Source: a virus. From it: DNA of 27,614 bases. Shown here piece by piece: positions 3,837 through 19,197 of the stretch. Every line of letters begins with the position of its first letter. The first letter of the stretch is position 1. The notes below the pieces were generated by a model, which saw nothing but the letters and a program-made list of their open reading frames with translations, had not been told where the DNA came from and did not search any database. The stretch is from IMG/VR virus record IMGVR_UViG_3300017788_000137, positions 1-27,614 of that record; one strand, 5' to 3'. Both the position numbers and the translations under genes were made by a program.

Positions 3837-4119
3837 AGGCTCTAACCTCATCCCGAAACGCAATGCAAAACACCAGTTCAGGCAACAGATCTTTGAGGCA
3901 TGGAGCCATGAGTGCGCGTACTGCGGCGCAGAGCCTGACACGTTAGATCACGTCAAGCCACGGCACAAGGGTGGCGCCACAGTTGCTTGCAATCTTGTAC
4001 CGGCGTGTCAGATTTGCAACCGTAAAAAGGGCAGCGAAGACTGGCGCGACTGGTTCAGCCGTCAAGATTCGTGGACAACAGCTCGCGTGCTAAGGATTCA
4101 GGATTGGACGCTTGATTAA
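3820..4119 (+). CDS. HNH endonuclease
   Basis: 99 residues with a GTG start. It has the compact HNH fold with zinc cysteines: C32-x2-C35 (CAYC) and C63-x2-C66 (CQIC). The catalytic core is DHVKPRHKGG (D43-H44) followed by N58 (CNLVPAC) and N67. Phage HNH nucleases of this size act in packaging, in cutting DNA, or as free-standing homing enzymes. Here it is the last gene of the plus-strand late block and converges on the sigma factor gene, overlapping its stop by 4 nt. No terminator hairpin is visible at the junction. Confidence 0.85.
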   Translation: MDHQIEGSNLIPKRNAKHQFRQQIFEAWSHECAYCGAEPDTLDHVKPRHKGGATVACNLVPACQICNRKKGSEDWRDWFSRQDSWTTARVLRIQDWTLD

Positions 4120-4237
4120 GCATTTGGTGGTAAAAAATTAACGCTTGCCATGCCTGCCTGTGCTCGATGCACATACCATTCAGGCACACGCGATAGATAT
4201 GCCCCACCTTGTGAATCGTTGGTTTCGACATGTCCAA
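4055..4237 (-). CDS. Possible overlapping small gene inside the sigma-factor 3' end
   Basis: A 60-residue frame (start at 4237, or the second ATG at 4231) lying in another frame over the last ~40 codons of the sigma gene and over the 3' end of the antisense HNH gene. Its sequence (MSKPTIHKVGHIYRVCLNGM, then CIEHRQAWQALIFYHQML) looks more protein-like than the sigma C-terminal extension it overlaps. It could be a real small gene, or the sigma C-terminus may be the shadow. I cannot decide from composition alone. Confidence 0.4.
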   Translation of the reverse strand: MDMSKPTIHKVGHIYRVCLNGMCIEHRQAWQALIFYHQMLNQASNPESLARELLSTNLDG

Positions 4238-5111
4238 GGGGGGTATCGTCCAAAGGGTTACTCATCAGCATACGCAGCCGTTGCAGGCCACGCTTCTCTA
4301 GGTTCTGCAATCTTGTCTTGCTAATGCCCATACGCTGTTCCAGTTCAGACCAACTCACAGGCCTGGCAAGGCTTCTGGCTTTAAGTATCCGTTTGGTTCG
4401 ACCGTCTAGTTTTGCTTCAAATATCTCCATCATGTCGCGTATTTCTTGCCGCGTTTCAACTAAATCATCCTCGTATTTAGGATCAGCGATGTTATCGCAA
4501 ATGGATGTGGTTTCTGTTTCAGCTACCTTTTGATCAAGACTGGTGACGCGATAGGTTTGTTTCATCAGATATGACAACTGTTCTGTTTTAATCCCCATTG
4601 CTGCTGCCGTTTCAGCCATGCTTGGTTGGCGCCCTAGTTTATGGCTAAGGTCTTGCACCGTGCGGCCTAGCTTGTATAGCGTCTCATGCAGGCTGGTTGG
4701 CAGCCGGATCATGTCATCGCTTTGGATCAATGCACGGGTGATGCCCTGGCGGATCCACCAGTAGGCATAGGTCGAGAACTTGTAGCCCCTTGATGGGTCA
4801 AACAACTCAACCGCACGCGCCAAGCCGATATTGCCCTCTTGAATCAGGTCCATCAGCTCAAGGCTTTTGTTGCTGCGTTTGTCGTACTTGCGTGCTACAT
4901 GCACCACAAGCTGCAGATTGGACTGGATAAACCGCTGCCGTGCGCGTTCACCGCTGCGCACTTCGCGCTGCTCTGCAACGGTCAGTTTCCTTTCTAGATT
5001 CTTTAATTCTTGCCATTTTGCTACACGCCTGCCTAGCTGTATCTCTTGTTGCGGTGTCAACAGCGGATATTTGGCAATACTGTTGAGATAGTCTTTAACG
5101 TTGTCAGCCAT
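4116..5111 (-). CDS. RNA polymerase sigma-70 family factor, cyanobacterial primary-like
   Basis: 331 residues. Region 1.2: VKDYLNSIAKYPLLTPQQEI (5-24). Region 2, about 57-130: DLIQEGNIGLARAVELFDP and YKFSTYAYWWIRQGITRAL, keeping the aromatic melting residues and the Gln/Thr that read the -10 element. Region 3, about 134-196: IRLPTSLHETLYKL. Region 4.2 helix-turn-helix, about 251-283: SWSELEQRMGISKTRLQNLE. The core is very like cyanobacterial group 1/2 sigma factors, so it should redirect host RNA polymerase to phage promoters. A tail of about 48 residues after region 4 is unusual. The start overlaps the divergent gene at 5110 within a single CATG. Confidence 0.92.
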   Translation of the reverse strand: MADNVKDYLNSIAKYPLLTPQQEIQLGRRVAKWQELKNLERKLTVAEQREVRSGERARQRFIQSNLQLVVHVARKYDKRSNKSLELMDLIQEGNIGLARAVELFDPSRGYKFSTYAYWWIRQGITRALIQSDDMIRLPTSLHETLYKLGRTVQDLSHKLGRQPSMAETAAAMGIKTEQLSYLMKQTYRVTSLDQKVAETETTSICDNIADPKYEDDLVETRQEIRDMMEIFEAKLDGRTKRILKARSLARPVSWSELEQRMGISKTRLQNLEKRGLQRLRMLMSNPLDDTPLGHVETNDSQGGAYLSRVPEWYVHRAQAGMASVNFLPPNA

Positions 5112-5355
5112 GACGAATCCGCTGGTTCACACGATGGAAGCGAAGTTCCATGGCGCTGCCAACGCTAACATGCTGCGCCAGCTTCATGCGGCAAAAGACT
5201 GGAACGCATTGCTCGAATATGGCCTGCTACTGGCTGAATCAGAAGCCAGCCAGCGGTCAACGATTAAATGGTTGGTCGCGGAAGCCATGAGATCATGCAG
5301 CGTCCAGGACTGGCACATCCAAGCGGCTAAGGAACTGCTTGCTGGCCGTGACTAA
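5110..5355 (+). CDS. Hypothetical helical protein, antisense within the minus-strand block
   Basis: 81 residues from the ATG at 5110; a second start at 5134 would give MEAKFHGAANANMLRQLHAA. Mostly helical, with a central KDWNALLEYGLLLAESEA. The protein fills exactly the gap between the sigma gene and the dCTP deaminase gene on the opposite strand, and nothing open fills this gap on the minus strand. Its 5' end shares CATG with the sigma start and its 3' end overlaps dcd by 63 nt. Transcription from the early block would be antisense to it. Function unknown. Confidence 0.6.
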   Translation: MTNPLVHTMEAKFHGAANANMLRQLHAAKDWNALLEYGLLLAESEASQRSTIKWLVAEAMRSCSVQDWHIQAAKELLAGRD

Positions 5356-5847
5356 CTTGTCGCCGTTGTAGCTGCCGGTGACGGCATAACTGATGGCTGG
5401 TCGTTGGCTCATGCGCCAAAAGACCATCTGACCAATTTTCAGGCCAGGGTAAATCGGCAGCGGCTGAAGCTGGCGTGCATTTTTTAGTTCCAGTGTCAGA
5501 CTGCTGCCATGCCAACCGGGATCGGCGTAGCCAGCATGGAGATTTTCATAGCCCTCGCGTGCACGACTGGATTTAAGGAAGAACAAGCCTGCGATGTCTT
5601 CAGGCATGTTGAATGTCTCCATTGTCTGCGCAAGAATGAACTGCCCTGGCACCAATTCATACGGGTGCTCGATGGTGTAATCCTTGATGCTGAGCGGAAT
5701 CATCTGATGCCCTTGAACAGACTCCAGCATGATTAAATCACCTACCCGCAGGTCGATGCTTGCTGGGTTAATTAGGTCTGCGTCATAGTCCTGCACCATC
5801 GAGTGCTGGCGGATCAGGTCTTGGATTTCGTGGTCGGAAAGAATCAC
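5293..5847 (-). CDS. dcd: dCTP deaminase
   Basis: 184 residues, close to the usual bacterial length of about 190. It converts dCTP to dUTP and ammonia, feeding dTMP synthesis. Diagnostic segments: start MILSDHEI, NPASIDLRVG (27-36), FFLKSSRAREG (89-99, with the SSxAR substrate loop), HAGYADPGWHG (104-114) followed by the catalytic glutamate E120 in LTLELKN, and IGQMVFW (138-144). No separate dUTPase is visible; some members are bifunctional. Its start overlaps the zinc-ribbon gene by 65 nt. Nucleotide pool control suits a phage that makes modified DNA, but that link is inference. Confidence 0.93.
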   Translation of the reverse strand: MILSDHEIQDLIRQHSMVQDYDADLINPASIDLRVGDLIMLESVQGHQMIPLSIKDYTIEHPYELVPGQFILAQTMETFNMPEDIAGLFFLKSSRAREGYENLHAGYADPGWHGSSLTLELKNARQLQPLPIYPGLKIGQMVFWRMSQRPAISYAVTGSYNGDKLVTASKQFLSRLDVPVLDAA

Positions 5848-6240: not shown

Positions 6241-6379
6241 CTTGCATCAGCTCCATCAGGTCAAGCATATGCGCTGCAAAAGCAACATGCGTCATTACTG
6301 CATGAGTGCCGGGCGCAATCCCATAGCTTTCACGCCACCAATCTTCGAAGGCAGCCTTGATGGTTAGCTCGTTCATCAT
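6218..6379 (-). CDS. Hypothetical 53-residue protein
   Basis: A short gene in the gap between the sliding clamp gene and the RHH gene. It reads MMNELTIKAAFEDWWRESYG, then IAPGTHAVMTHVAFAAHMLD, and ends at TAA. The start ATG overlaps the dnaN stop as ATGA (6376-6379), typical of coupling in this block, and its end overlaps the RHH start by 23 nt. It is helical, with a Trp-Trp pair. Function unknown. Confidence 0.65.
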   Translation of the reverse strand: MMNELTIKAAFEDWWRESYGIAPGTHAVMTHVAFAAHMLDLMELMQDAERPPA

Positions 6380-7416
6380 TGCCTGACTTGGACTGGCATA
6401 ACCAAATAAGTTTGATCGACTGCAGCCTTCGGCTTGATCACGACTGGTGTTTTTTCACCATTTGCCATAAAAACCACATAGTCATGACTCCTGAAAGCCT
6501 TAAGTGCGTCAAGAATGTAGTTTACATTAAAAGCCCATACCCCTTCTCCTTCGTCCAAATAAGGCATCGACTCGGCGCCATTTAGCGCATCAGCTTCCGC
6601 TGTAATTGTCAAAACACCATTATTGGCTTCAACTTTAACGACCGAGTTGTGCTCTTCGGCCACAATTGCTACTCTTTCTAAACAGCGTAATAGCCTATGC
6701 CGATCAACTTCGATTTGATGATCGAAAGTTTTAGGGATAAGGCTGATCAAGTCTGGATACTTGCCGTCCAACGTCCTTGAAAAAATAGTAATCCCTTCAT
6801 CGGTAACAATAACAGCTTGTCCCTTGTCCGCCGAAATCGTCACAGCTTGATATTGAATTAAACGCATGGTGTTAGCTGGCAACACAAGGTCAATTCCGTC
6901 AGGCAAATCAACTGCATAACGCATCATTCGGTGACCGTCTGTTGCTTCCATGTAACCATTGGCAATGTGGATGCCCTGCAGAATTTGCTTGCTGGCGTCT
7001 TTGCTAGTACATGGCAAACACGCTTTCACTCCATCTGAAAGCAAAAGCTCACTTGACTTCGAATCGACCACTGGCAAAGCAGGGTAGTCAAGTGCGTCGT
7101 GAAATGGAATCTTGTAAGCACCGTCCAATGTTTTGATTAAATTGTTCTCAATACTAATAGCATCATCCTCCTCGAAACGGTTGGTCAAATTAGCTAGCAG
7201 TTTGTACGGCATTGCCAAGCTGCCATTTTTTTCGACTAGCGCAGGCGTTGTGATGCTGATGCCAAGGTCCATATTGAACCCAGTTAAAGTCATTTCACCG
7301 TTCCTTGCATCGAACAGCACGCAACCAAGAATCGGATGGCTGTTGTTTGAATTAATAGCTGGTGAAATCGTTTTCAAAGCGTGGGACAGGTCGCCCTTCG
7401 TTGTAAGTAGTTTCAT
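6376..7416 (-). CDS. dnaN: DNA polymerase III sliding clamp (beta subunit)
   Basis: 346 residues, slightly shorter than bacterial DnaN (about 366). It forms the ring that tethers DNA polymerase III to DNA. The N-terminus MKLLTTKGDLSHALKTISPA, the mid-protein EATDGHRMMRYAV and the C-terminal end YLVMPVQV match the three-domain clamp, including the conserved C-terminal MP(M/V) that lines the partner-binding pocket. The start at 7416 gives an ATGA overlap with the DUF3310 gene; an upstream start at 7437 is less likely. Phage-encoded beta clamps are uncommon, and no phage polymerase accompanies it in this window. Confidence 0.93.
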   Translation of the reverse strand: MKLLTTKGDLSHALKTISPAINSNNSHPILGCVLFDARNGEMTLTGFNMDLGISITTPALVEKNGSLAMPYKLLANLTNRFEEDDAISIENNLIKTLDGAYKIPFHDALDYPALPVVDSKSSELLLSDGVKACLPCTSKDASKQILQGIHIANGYMEATDGHRMMRYAVDLPDGIDLVLPANTMRLIQYQAVTISADKGQAVIVTDEGITIFSRTLDGKYPDLISLIPKTFDHQIEVDRHRLLRCLERVAIVAEEHNSVVKVEANNGVLTITAEADALNGAESMPYLDEGEGVWAFNVNYILDALKAFRSHDYVVFMANGEKTPVVIKPKAAVDQTYLVMPVQVRQ

Positions 7417-7613
7417 TGTCGGTGGATAAGATACCAAATTGCTTTGCCCAAATCCTCATCACCACCCTTGTGCCGTTCGCGCCAGATGTACTTTATTGCA
7501 TTGCCTTTGATGTAACCACGCCATTCCTCAGGATTGAGGGCTGATCGGATTGCATCGATGCATTCAATATTGCCACTGGTGTAATGGTCTGGATGGTTGA
7601 TAGAGTCAGACAT
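7413..7613 (-). CDS. DUF3310 family protein
   Basis: 66 residues from the ATG at 7613. NHPDHYTSGNIECIDAIRSA and GNAIKYIWRERHKGG followed by DLGKAIWYLIH are the full signature of the DUF3310 family, which includes a domain found in T7 gp1.7-like proteins. Members are common in phage nucleotide-metabolism regions; the biochemical activity is not settled. It overlaps the preceding gene by 8 nt and the dnaN start by 4 nt. A longer reading from 7745 would run through the neighbour and is rejected. Confidence 0.88.
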   Translation of the reverse strand: MSDSINHPDHYTSGNIECIDAIRSALNPEEWRGYIKGNAIKYIWRERHKGGDEDLGKAIWYLIHRQ

Positions 7614-15368: not shown

Positions 15369-15962
15369 ATGGTTATCGCTCCTGAATTTATCGATCAGAC
15401 CCCAGTTGAAGACCTCAAGCCATACGACAAAAACCCAAGGACCCATAGCGCAACTCAAATCGAACGCCTGGTGAACTCCATGAAAGAGTTCGGGTTCACT
15501 AATCCACTTCTGATCGATGACGATCAAAACGTCATCGCTGGTCACGGTCGCCTTGAAGCAGCAAAAATCCTTGGCCTTGAAACTGTCCCAACAATTACTC
15601 TGTCGCACCTAACGCCAGAGCAAAGGCGTGCTTACGTTATCGCTGATAACCAGCTAGCTCTTAACTCTGGTTGGGATGACGACCTGCTCCAATCAGAAAT
15701 TAACGCACTCGGTGAACTTGGCTACGACTTGACCCTTCTCGGCTGGGGCGATGAACTTCCCAGTTTCGGTGAAGAAATCGACCTGTCCGCCCTAGAAGAC
15801 GAAGAAGACTTGTCCGAATACGCTGCTGGCGTGCGCAAAGCGATTCAGATCGACTTCGAACCAGAAGACTACGAAGAGGCGCAGGCACTGGTATCCGCAG
15901 CTCGCAAGTCTGGTAAATATGTCGGCATGCTTTTAATCAATGCACTTAAAGACGATGCTTGA
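15369..15962 (+). CDS. ParB/Srx-fold nuclease-like domain protein
   Basis: 197 residues. Residues 13-100 are a ParB N-terminal/sulfiredoxin-like domain: LKPYDKNPRTHSATQIERLV, FGFTNPLLIDDDQNVIAGHG (GHGR motif), then LTPEQRRAYVIADNQLALNS. In many phages this domain stands alone or is fused to DNA methyltransferases; here no methyltransferase domain follows, only an acidic region and a C-terminal alpha/beta segment (residues 155-197). It overlaps the glycosyltransferase start by 8 nt, indicating a joint operon with the DNA-modifying enzymes. Possible roles are NTP-dependent DNA binding or nicking. Confidence 0.85.
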   Translation: MVIAPEFIDQTPVEDLKPYDKNPRTHSATQIERLVNSMKEFGFTNPLLIDDDQNVIAGHGRLEAAKILGLETVPTITLSHLTPEQRRAYVIADNQLALNSGWDDDLLQSEINALGELGYDLTLLGWGDELPSFGEEIDLSALEDEEDLSEYAAGVRKAIQIDFEPEDYEEAQALVSAARKSGKYVGMLLINALKDDA

Positions 15963-16752
15963 TTATCAAATCGCTATTCCCTCTTACAAGCGAACGGAAA
16001 CACTAGCGAAAGCAACGCTGTCTATGTTAAAAAAACATGGTTGCGACTTTTCGAACGTAACCATCTTTACCGCCGACAAAAACGAAACCAAAGCCTATTC
16101 CGCCATGCTTGGCATGGTCGGCATTCGAGCTGAAGTAGTTACTGGCGAACCAGGCATCGGCAAGCAACGCATCTTTATTAACAAACACTACCCAGTTGAC
16201 ACGAGGGTTCTCAGCCTCGATGACGATATTTATGCCTTGTCGATCGTTGATGAAAACAAAAAACTGAATCCCTGTGATTGGACAATCGACCGCATTGCCT
16301 TAAAAGGGTTTCAAACCTGCGAAAAGGTCAACGCAAAAATGTGGGGAATCAATCCCGTTGAAAATGGCTTCTATATGGATCGCACTACCTCGATTGGCCT
16401 GCGATACATCTGTGCCAACTTCTTCGGGTCTTACGCCGGTGATGCTGTTTGGACCGCCACAGACCGTAAAGACTTCTCTTCAGGCGAAGACTTTGAATCC
16501 ACGCTTCGATCATTCGTGCAATACAAAGGCGTCGTCCGCCTAGACGGTATTTGCCCTAAAACTAAATACTTCGCGCAAGGTGGCATCTGCGCTGAAATAG
16601 GCGGTGAAGACAAACGCAAACTAGACCATCACAAGCACCTCACCGAAATCGCTGCACGCTTTCCTCACCTATGCAAAACCTACAAAAAATCAGACGGCAC
16701 TACTAACATCAAACTAAAACCAGTCACACGCGGCAAAATTGCTTGGCTATGA
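15955..16752 (+). CDS. GT-A glycosyltransferase, likely TET/JBP-associated (TAGT-like)
   Basis: 265 residues. GT-A nucleotide-sugar fold: IAIPSYKR at 7-13, FTADKNE near 38-44, the metal-binding LSLDDDI at 87-92 (DxD), and GEDFEST at 177-183, where the ED could supply the catalytic base. The sequence style and the 4-nt overlap with a TET/JBP oxygenase fit the glycosyltransferases that place a sugar on hydroxymethylated bases in phage DNA. Sugar donor and base are unknown. A general GT2 role on cell surface is the alternative, but the overlap argues for DNA. I start it at the ATG at 15955 instead of 15940. Confidence 0.75.
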   Translation: MLDYQIAIPSYKRTETLAKATLSMLKKHGCDFSNVTIFTADKNETKAYSAMLGMVGIRAEVVTGEPGIGKQRIFINKHYPVDTRVLSLDDDIYALSIVDENKKLNPCDWTIDRIALKGFQTCEKVNAKMWGINPVENGFYMDRTTSIGLRYICANFFGSYAGDAVWTATDRKDFSSGEDFESTLRSFVQYKGVVRLDGICPKTKYFAQGGICAEIGGEDKRKLDHHKHLTEIAARFPHLCKTYKKSDGTTNIKLKPVTRGKIAWL

Positions 16753-17537
16753 CCATTACAAAACTGCCAACCGTCATACTCAAACCCGTTCAGCACACCG
16801 TCAAAATCGGTGATTCCGTAACCAACCTGCAACCTACAATCACGGATTCCTGCATCCTTGTGGACCCTGACGGCAGTCAGGTAGGACTGTTCCTCAAAGA
16901 GCTTCCGCCAGAACTGCAAAATCTGGTCAACATCGCTGACCTCGAAGTTCGCTCCGATCGCGTTCCAAAATCAACCATGCGCCGCTCTTCAGGCATGATG
17001 GGCGCCGCCAAAGAAGTTGAGCAATACTCGGCCATTCTCGGCTCATGCCCGCCTAAACCGCACATGCGCCGCCCATATCCCACACGCTCGTCAATACACT
17101 CCAAACCCTCGGCGTCAACATTCGTCCGTGCCATGCTCAAAGCAGGCAAACTCGCTATGGGTCTCGTCGCTCACTACATCCCAGACGTCCACGCCAAGCA
17201 CCTATCCGTTATCGAAAAACGCATCCCATCAGATTGGCGCTTCACCCCATACTTCTCCTCAACCATCTCGAACTGCAATATCGCTGCCCCAATCCACCAA
17301 GACAACGCCAACGTCAAAGGCGCCGTAAACCTCATCATTACCAAGCGTCAAAACTCAACAGGCGGAAACCTCTGCGTTCCTGATTACAACGCCACCTTCG
17401 ATCAATCAAATAATTCCCTTCTCGTTTACCCCGCATGGCGCAACATGCACGGCGTAACACCAATCGTCCCAACGCATCCTGGTGGTTACCGTAACTCTCA
17501 CGTCTGGTATGCTCTAGACTCTTTTGCAAACCTGTAA
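16749..17537 (+). CDS. TET/JBP-family Fe(II)/2-oxoglutarate dioxygenase (DNA base hydroxylase)
   Basis: 262 residues, starting in an ATGA overlap with the glycosyltransferase. The C-terminal double-stranded beta helix carries PIHQDNANVKGAVNLI (H183-x-D185), GGNLCVPDYN, NNSLLVYPAWRNMHGVTP (distal H234) and GGYRNSHVWY (R248 for 2-oxoglutarate). This spacing and the N/G residues after HxD follow the TET/JBP group that hydroxylates 5-methylcytosine or thymine within DNA. Residues 1-140 are a less conserved N-terminal part. No C5-cytosine methyltransferase is in the window, so the substrate may be host- or elsewhere-made 5mC, or thymine. Codon use is somewhat more AC-rich than in the neighbouring head genes. 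Confidence 0.8.
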   Translation: MTITKLPTVILKPVQHTVKIGDSVTNLQPTITDSCILVDPDGSQVGLFLKELPPELQNLVNIADLEVRSDRVPKSTMRRSSGMMGAAKEVEQYSAILGSCPPKPHMRRPYPTRSSIHSKPSASTFVRAMLKAGKLAMGLVAHYIPDVHAKHLSVIEKRIPSDWRFTPYFSSTISNCNIAAPIHQDNANVKGAVNLIITKRQNSTGGNLCVPDYNATFDQSNNSLLVYPAWRNMHGVTPIVPTHPGGYRNSHVWYALDSFANL

Positions 17538-17545
17538 TAACAAAT

Positions 17546-17872
17546 ATGGCTGGTAAAACTCGTTGCACTGCAGCAGAAAAAATGTTCAGAACTGCTCGTA
17601 TCGCACGCATGATTGCCAATGGTGCGACACGATCGGATCTTTTGCAATACGGTGCTGCTGAATGGGGGCTCAGCCCACGCATGGTAGACGAGTACCGTGC
17701 CGCAGCAATGAAGGAACTGGAACTTGATTGGAACCTTGACCGCCAGGCCTACGCAGCAGTCCTGTTATCGCAACTCAACATCGTACACAAAAAGTCTATG
17801 GAAGGCGGCAACCTGGCTGTCACCCTTGGCTGCATTAACACCGCTGCAAAAATTGCCAAGATTTTGGATTGA
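17546..17872 (+). CDS. terS: Terminase small subunit
   Basis: 108 residues: helical, with a putative helix-turn-helix IANGATRSDLLQYGAAEWGL SPRMVDEY and a C-terminal helical oligomerisation part (LSQLNIVHKKSMEGGNLAVT). Size and placement directly before the large subunit (1-nt overlap, TGATG) fit the packaging-site recognition protein. The call rests on context plus the helix-turn-helix pattern. Confidence 0.8.
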   Translation: MAGKTRCTAAEKMFRTARIARMIANGATRSDLLQYGAAEWGLSPRMVDEYRAAAMKELELDWNLDRQAYAAVLLSQLNIVHKKSMEGGNLAVTLGCINTAAKIAKILD

Positions 17873-19197
17873 TGGGGTTCCTTAGCTCATTGCCCTCGGG
17901 ATCTGTTCTTTCGCCGATAGTCGAACCCAATACTGATGCGCAGTTAGCAATCGCCTCAGTAAGCGATACCCTTTACGGCACCCTCACCGAACCGCAACGT
18001 AAGGTGTACGACGCACCAGAGCGGTTCAAAATGCTTTGCTCTGGTCGTCGTTTTGGCAAGACTTACCTCTGCATCGCTCGCCTCGTCAACTGGGCTGCTA
18101 CCAAACCAAACAGCCTGAATTGGTACGTCACGGCAAACTACAGAATGGCGAAGCAAATTGCCTGGCGGCAACTCAAAGCAATGATTCCGCCTGATGTTTG
18201 CGTAAAACGAAACGAGTCTGAGTTGAGCCTTGAACTCGTCAATGGCAGCATCATTGCCCTTAAAGGCGCTGAAAACCCAGACACGCTGCGTGGTGTCAGC
18301 CTTTCAACTCTCATCGTTGACGAAGCTGCGTACGTCAAACAAGACGCTTGGGAAATGGTTCTGCGTCCTGCTCTGTCAGACCAAGGTGGTCCGGCTTGGT
18401 TTATTACTACGCCCGCTGGCCTGAACTGGTTTCATGATCTTTGGGAACAAGCGCAGCAGGAACCTGACTGGCGTACGTTTTCATACTCCACCATCGAAGG
18501 TGGCAACGTATCTCAAGAAGAAATCGACGCTGCCAAACGCACCCTGGATGAACGCACCTTCCGCCAGGAATACCTAGCCAGCTTTGAAACGTTGTCTGGC
18601 CGCGTTTATCCAGACTTCTCTGACGACAACATTTCAGACACCGTTCAGGACACTGGAGCTGAAATTTACTGGGGCACAGACTTTAACGTATCAGTCATGG
18701 CTGGCGTACTCGGCAGTCGCGTGGGCGACACGCTGCATGTCTGGGATGAACTGGCAGTCAACCAGTCCAATACTGATGAAGTTTGCACCCTGTTAAAAGA
18801 ACGCTTTCCTGACCGCAAAATTATTGCTTATCCAGACCCGACAGGTTCAGCTCGCAAGACCAGTTCCGCCGGTAAAACTGACCATGACATTATTCGTCGT
18901 TACGGTTTTAGCTGCATGAGCCCGAAAGCTCCTTGGTCGGTGAAGGACAAAATCAACGCGACCAACTGGATGGTTCGCGCCGCCGATGGGCATTTGAAAC
19001 TATTTGTCCACCCTCGTTGCAAACACACCATCAAAGCCTTGAAAAACGTGACATACAAACAAGGCGCAGACGAGTACGTTATTGATAAATCAGCAGGCAT
19101 TGAGCACTGGACTGACGGACTTGGATATCTGATCCTTGGTGCCTTCAATCCCCTTTACGAGCGTGCTGGCAAGGGGACTGGCATTAGGATCTATTGA
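17872..19197 (+). CDS. terL: Terminase large subunit
   Basis: 441 residues. ATPase domain: Walker A SGRRFGKT (57-64), Walker B LIVDEA (147-152), coupling motif ITTP (178-181). C-terminal RNase H-like nuclease: acidic residues at YWGTDFN (D270), YPDPTG (D322) and HWTDGLGY (D415). It cuts and pumps phage DNA into the prohead. The start is the ATG sharing one base with the terS stop; a TTG one codon earlier is possible. The match to the family is clear; packaging type (headful or cohesive) cannot be told from the sequence. Confidence 0.95.
   Translation: MGFLSSLPSGSVLSPIVEPNTDAQLAIASVSDTLYGTLTEPQRKVYDAPERFKMLCSGRRFGKTYLCIARLVNWAATKPNSLNWYVTANYRMAKQIAWRQLKAMIPPDVCVKRNESELSLELVNGSIIALKGAENPDTLRGVSLSTLIVDEAAYVKQDAWEMVLRPALSDQGGPAWFITTPAGLNWFHDLWEQAQQEPDWRTFSYSTIEGGNVSQEEIDAAKRTLDERTFRQEYLASFETLSGRVYPDFSDDNISDTVQDTGAEIYWGTDFNVSVMAGVLGSRVGDTLHVWDELAVNQSNTDEVCTLLKERFPDRKIIAYPDPTGSARKTSSAGKTDHDIIRRYGFSCMSPKAPWSVKDKINATNWMVRAADGHLKLFVHPRCKHTIKALKNVTYKQGADEYVIDKSAGIEHWTDGLGYLILGAFNPLYERAGKGTGIRIY

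Follow-up and report, generated by a model that had tools for sequence, protein, structure and literature searches.

A putative TET-dependent DNA-hypermodification operon with an exchangeable middle gene in cyanophages

Organization of the locus

The window, i.e., the whole stretch of 27,614 nucleotides of viral DNA analyzed here, is a 27.6-kb fragment of a phage genome whose missing part, judged by synteny, consists mainly of the tail module. Between its replication initiator and its terminase lie three genes, all on the plus strand: the first (15369..15962) encodes a stand-alone ParB_N-domain protein of 197 aa (PF02195), the second (15955..16752) a TET-associated glycosyltransferase (TAGT), probably of the GT-A type (265 aa, PF20691), and the third (16749..17537) a protein of 262 aa that, by its fold and catalytic residues, is predicted to be a TET/JBP-type 2-oxoglutarate/Fe(II) DNA-base hydroxylase. 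The three open reading frames are intact, begin with ATG and overlap by 8 nt (ParB/TAGT) and 4 nt (TAGT/TET); coordinates and overlaps are those given in a preliminary description of this DNA. The cassette is followed, on the same strand, by a conserved gene of 108 aa in the small-terminase position (17546..17872; phrog_34910, E = 9.3e-25, unknown function) and by the gene of the large terminase subunit, TerL (17869..19197; phrog_2, E = 5.6e-45). The 108-aa gene is syntenic in most relatives and belongs to the context of the cassette, outside the proposed pathway.

Among the named phages, cyanophage S-2L (L171) has the TerL closest to that of the window (52% identical). Just before its TerL, with one small gene in between, S-2L carries purZ-mazZ-datZ, i.e., its 2-aminoadenine genes (PMC8342488), at the place where the window has ParB-TAGT-TET, a comparison indicating that, in related phages, DNA-modification systems of unrelated kinds occupy the position before the terminase. 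The small gene of S-2L and the 108-aa gene of the window do not align, and the former was rejected as a homologue of the latter.

The TET/JBP-type protein

The third protein matches the Pfam family Tet_JBP (PF12851) with 23.2 bits (E = 4.3e-5), below the Pfam cut-off of 34.9. A PDB search with its AlphaFold2 model, for which 33 relatives were used (pLDDT 85.9, pTM 0.86), returned CcTet (3.6e-12), TET2 (9e-11) and NgTet1 (1e-9) as the best matches, CMD1 also ranking ahead of FTO and AlkB; TET-family structures thus top the list, in agreement with the preliminary assignment. In a profile limited to the catalytic part, H183-x-D185, H234 and R248, all of them present as previously claimed, line up with the iron/2-oxoglutarate ligands of TET2 and NgTet1, and H183, D185, N188, H234, R248 and L256 are invariant in all 80 distinct relatives. 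Furthermore, Synechococcus phage S-CBWM1 has a protein, gp9, that the TET family profile matches with 62 bits and, since gp9 itself passes the Tet_JBP cut-off (65.5 bits), the window protein can be regarded as a divergent member of this family. It is by the modeled fold and by this bridging homologue that its assignment as a TET/JBP-type enzyme is secured.

Matches of the full TET profile to TAL effectors were discarded as repeat-driven artefacts of a helical stretch, being gone when the catalytic part alone is used. As to S-CBWM1 gp9 (L085:3729-5165), it is annotated as "putative SNF2 DNA repair protein", yet it is a clear Tet_JBP (E = 4.3e-18); its gene adjoins a TAGT and sugar-nucleotide genes, and a C5-cytosine methyltransferase (C5-MTase) was not found in the 139-kb genome of this phage.

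The glycosyltransferase and the ParB partner

By sequence the second protein is a TAGT, its match with PF20691 (E = 1.2e-8, 35.6 bits) being over the curated cut-off of 27.5; phrog_842 (beta-glucosyl-HMC-alpha-glucosyltransferase) is matched as well (5.5e-6). The DxD motif noticed earlier is there as D89-D90-D91, and both this DDD and an ED pair (E178-D179) are invariant across the two, mutually distant, kinds of TAGT. The structural model is of low confidence (pLDDT 70) and its best PDB matches are GT-A/GT2 enzymes, e.g., TarS and chondroitin polymerase, which support a GT-A fold and do not distinguish between a DNA and a cell-surface substrate. Many phages carry solitary TAGTs whose product is unknown, and PF20691 takes in the T6 enzyme that acts on glucosylated hmC (PMC13216743).

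The first protein matches ParB_N (E = 1.1e-7, 32.2 bits, over the cut-off of 26.3), phrog_620 "ParB-like partition protein" (1e-49), phrog_498, which is the ParB domain of a phage DNA methyltransferase (4.8e-47), and Spo0J/ParB structures (E = 7.8e-6). The preliminary description had singled it out as an odd third member of the cassette; it is instead the constant partner of the TET, which it precedes in all 61 relatives whose sequence extends 1.5 kb or more upstream, the genes of the cassette nearly always overlapping, and which it also accompanies in the five named phages Acadian, Prairie, CaiB, Tonitrus and MementoMori. This strict linkage, together with the similarity to the ParB domain found in phage DNA methyltransferases, points to a role as TET partner, and the phrog_498 match suggests that ParB proteins of this kind may be general DNA-modification partners. 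Two genes annotated as "DNA methylase" in other records (L081:15790-16431 and L082:13830-14471) encode only a ParB_N-type protein of ~213 aa.

Relatives and the exchangeable middle position

Relatives of the TET were found in at least 586 stretches of viral contigs with the same gene order, which argues against a chance assembly of the cassette. A close-relative pattern scan of 84,980 cellular genomes returned none, and on this ground the idea that the TET stems from a prophage or a cell was rejected. The order ParB-slot-TET is kept, the small gene and TerL usually coming next, and what varies is the content of the slot: among the 80 distinct relatives it is most commonly an FkbM-family methyltransferase (41), followed by TAGT of a second kind (19) and of a first kind (16), whereas it is empty in three and occupied by a P-loop kinase-like protein in one. 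Mapped on the TET tree, a quick tree in which 20 of the 77 branches are starred, slot content changed at least 12 times, the minimum possible being 4. Indeed, near-identical TETs differ in having an FkbM gene or nothing in the slot (L230, L229), and TAGT-2 is found inside FkbM clades (L063, L218, L080). Judged by gene content, the middle position is open to exchange between the constant ParB and TET, and this exchangeability is the main feature that the preliminary description had overlooked. The enzymes found there (TAGT, FkbM of the O-methyltransferase type, a possible kinase) fit a hydroxyl acceptor.

The P-loop kinase-like protein (L066:1445-1939) is unique, and a tblastn search found no counterpart of it in named phages; as a 5hmU DNA kinase it is at best a tentative candidate, its match to PF18751 being under the cut-off and confined to the P-loop. 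MED4-184 and MED4-117, two cultured phages of Prochlorococcus MED4, share with the window the arrangement ParB-slot-TET-small gene-TerL and a TET that is 69% identical, but have an FkbM methyltransferase instead of a TAGT in the slot.

That hydroxymethyl pyrimidines made by TET enzymes are starting points for hypermodification and that ParB-TET cassettes lie near the terminase was already known or predicted. The exchangeable slot of the picocyanophages and the pairing with FkbM appear to be new, although this is not put forward as a firm claim; a literature search found nothing pertinent on cyanophage TET or on the TET-FkbM pairing.

Comparison with other modification systems

The nearest parallels are offered by the actinophages CaiB (Gordonia), Tonitrus (Rhodococcus) and Acadian (Mycobacterium) in which, as in the window, ParB and then TET, overlapping or closely packed, stand directly before the terminase. 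The cassettes of CaiB and Tonitrus were read by their authors as serving nucleotide modification (PMC9302106) and thymidine hypermodification (PMC11955845), respectively. Acadian also resembles the window in having a TAGT, which occurs with ParB-TET and a PIG-L deacetylase. Unlike the window, which has a single TAGT, these sister cassettes add a P-loop nucleotide kinase (PF18751, in five of six actinophage records), an amino acid:DNA transferase (ADDT, PF18724, in three of six) or a PIG-L deacetylase; neither the kinase nor the ADDT is present in the window. The gene order differs as well, being ParB-slot-TET in the cyanophages and ParB-TET-tailoring in the actinophages. In Acadian (L083, 3022-3576) and MementoMori (L175, 1604-2158), a gene labeled "terminase small subunit" matches PF18751 over the cut-off, so that this label is likely a misannotation. 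In Kozie, a TET-bearing Microbacterium phage, gp3 (L176:1826-2692) is an FAD-dependent oxidoreductase (PF01266) placed between the ADDT and the P-loop kinase.

In the base J pathway of kinetoplastids (JBP1/2 and the J-associated glucosyltransferase) the base is hydroxylated within DNA by a TET/JBP-type enzyme and the resulting hydroxymethyl group is then glycosylated (PMC10276184), as proposed here; the 262-aa protein of the window, however, is devoid of a J-binding domain and has a ParB partner in its stead, and its thymine specificity is conjectural. The TAGT of the T-even phages (beta-glucosyl-HMC-alpha-glucosyltransferase) belongs to PF20691 like that of the window, but adds a second sugar to hmC made at the nucleotide level, whereas no alpha/beta-GT or hydroxymethylase was seen in the window, where the TET would supply the hydroxyl. 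Finally, the phage cytosine pathway reportedly described by Burke et al. 2021, consisting of C5-MTase, TET and glycosyltransferase, has TET and TET-associated glycosyltransferase in common with the window; the window and most of its relatives differ from it in the lack of the C5-MTase.

The target base

The lack of a C5-MTase was considered a distinctive trait in the preliminary description. A six-frame search of the 27.6-kb window likewise found none, but the trait is not special to it, since the enzyme was not found in eight of ten near-complete relatives, nor in Acadian, Prairie, S-CBWM1, CaiB, Tonitrus, MementoMori and Kozie. The sole phage C5-MTases found in the group, both intact, are those of the other two near-complete relatives, which are closely related to each other (G017, L086; G015, L087); they lie in the early region, a region that is present in the window, and in G017 the gene adjoins a RusA-like gene. 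On the host side, the C5-MTase family PF00145 occurs in 54 of 200 Prochlorococcus-genus genomes (27%), in 29 of 251 Cyanobium-family genomes (12%) and in one of 15 named host-group genomes, figures to be read bearing in mind that many of these genomes are incomplete, that the host group was picked as picocyanobacterial, that the window's own host may differ and that IMG/VR records, too, may be incomplete. The sigma factor of the window (4116-5111, minus strand) is closest to picocyanobacterial sigma factors (42%); partial homologues of it occur in L003, L017 and S-2L. A literature search on the MED4 methylome found nothing pertinent.

Hydroxymethylases of the thymidylate-synthase family (PF00303) were found in none of 19 related records and an enzyme of this type is not among the PHROG matches of 28 window proteins, which leaves the TET as the obvious supplier of the hydroxymethyl group. 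As to its active site, TET2 H1904 and NgTet1 H297 contact 5mC in their structures, and the aligned position is Leu256 in all 80 relatives; on the other hand, Asn188 aligns with TET2 N1387 and is thus kept as in a 5mC enzyme.

The dCTP deaminase of the window (5293-5847, minus strand), to which the preliminary description had drawn attention, is shared by only one of 13 further records tested, namely L001, the 99% twin of the window; for this reason it was rejected as a component of the system. Also on the minus strand (6376-7437) the window encodes a sliding-clamp-like DNA polymerase processivity factor.

Proposed pathway and alternatives

With the TET fold and residues established and the TAGT over its cut-off, the interpretation of the locus as a TET/JBP- and TAGT-based DNA-hypermodification system stands. 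JBP enzymes convert thymine in DNA to 5-hydroxymethyluracil (5hmU). In the pathway that we infer here, the TET/JBP-type dioxygenase would likewise act on a pyrimidine within the DNA, most likely thymine, and hydroxylate its 5-methyl group, yielding 5hmU. The TAGT would then glycosylate this hydroxyl, drawing on a host nucleotide-sugar, to give a base-J-like glycosylated 5hmU; where FkbM fills the slot, the outcome may be a hydroxymethyl base that is O-methylated. The ParB-fold protein might act as the DNA-loading or targeting partner of the TET, this being the least certain step. The position of the operon between replication initiator and terminase suggests that modification probably follows replication and precedes or accompanies packaging, and the modified DNA should be protected from host nucleases. 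To this reading as a whole, i.e., a phage operon in which the TET hydroxylates a pyrimidine, most likely thymine, the TAGT glycosylates it and ParB assists, we assign a probability of about 0.6.

The choice between the two bases named in the preliminary description, 5mC from the host or thymine itself, is thereby tilted toward thymine by the comparative evidence, 5mC of host or phage origin being the less probable substrate. If the same operon acted on 5mC, the methyl group placed by a host or phage C5-MTase would be oxidized by the TET to 5hmC and then glycosylated by the TAGT. Combinations of C5-MTase, TET and glycosyltransferases are indeed common in phages, where they make glycosylated cytosine (PMC12730594), and Asn188, the enzymes of G015 and G017, the PF00145 matches of some host-group genomes and the T6 member of PF20691 all speak for this alternative. 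It is nevertheless rather unlikely in view of the rarity of the C5-MTase in these phages and in most host-group genomes, of the replacement of the 5mC-contacting His by Leu, and of the kinase and ADDT of the sister cassettes, which count in favor of thymine as partners reported for thymidine hypermodification. These same points and the lack of a hydroxymethylase cause thymine to be favored over 5mC by about two to one, without amounting to proof.

Readings that dispense with hypermodification fare worse. Since the fold of the third protein is also matched by FTO and AlkB and the best structural matches of the glycosyltransferase include TarS and chondroitin polymerase, the former might be an AlkB/FTO-like demethylase/repair or counter-silencing enzyme and the latter an unrelated cell-surface enzyme; this is very improbable, given that TET-family structures are ahead by several orders of magnitude, that the TAGT passes a curated cut-off and that the TET is tightly linked to ParB and to tailoring enzymes that replace one another. 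Even less credible is a queuine tRNA-ribosyltransferase in a cassette modifying tRNA or 7-deazaguanine, as would follow from the label of phrog_6059, which matches the third protein with E = 7.4e-70, and from the RefSeq labels in MED4-184 and Acadian. At E values up to 1 the window TET matches Tet_JBP only and no transglycosylase Pfam model, Acadian gp2, itself a member of phrog_6059, matches only Tet_JBP, and the fold, being that of a TET, already contradicts this function; on the strength of Pfam and fold the label is considered wrong for the TET group.

Returning to the operon acting most likely on thymine, a more tentative extension, conceivable though not the likelier outcome, is that ParB-TET constitutes a modular base-hydroxylation platform whose decorating enzyme is swapped, the version of the window leading to glycosylated 5hmU and the FkbM version to a methoxymethyl-pyrimidine, e.g., 5-methoxymethyluracil. 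We know of no description of such a methoxymethyl-pyrimidine in DNA.

Implications

If the proposed pathway is correct, abundant marine and freshwater cyanophages would have DNA hypermodified in a TET-dependent way without recourse to a methyltransferase of their own, and close relatives among these phages would give their DNA a different chemical coat through the exchange of a single gene, as expected in an arms race with host nucleases. Cultured members exist, i.e., P-HS2/MED4-184 and MED4-117, Mycobacterium phage Acadian, Gordonia phage CaiB and Rhodococcus phage Tonitrus, and these could yield new base-modifying enzymes.
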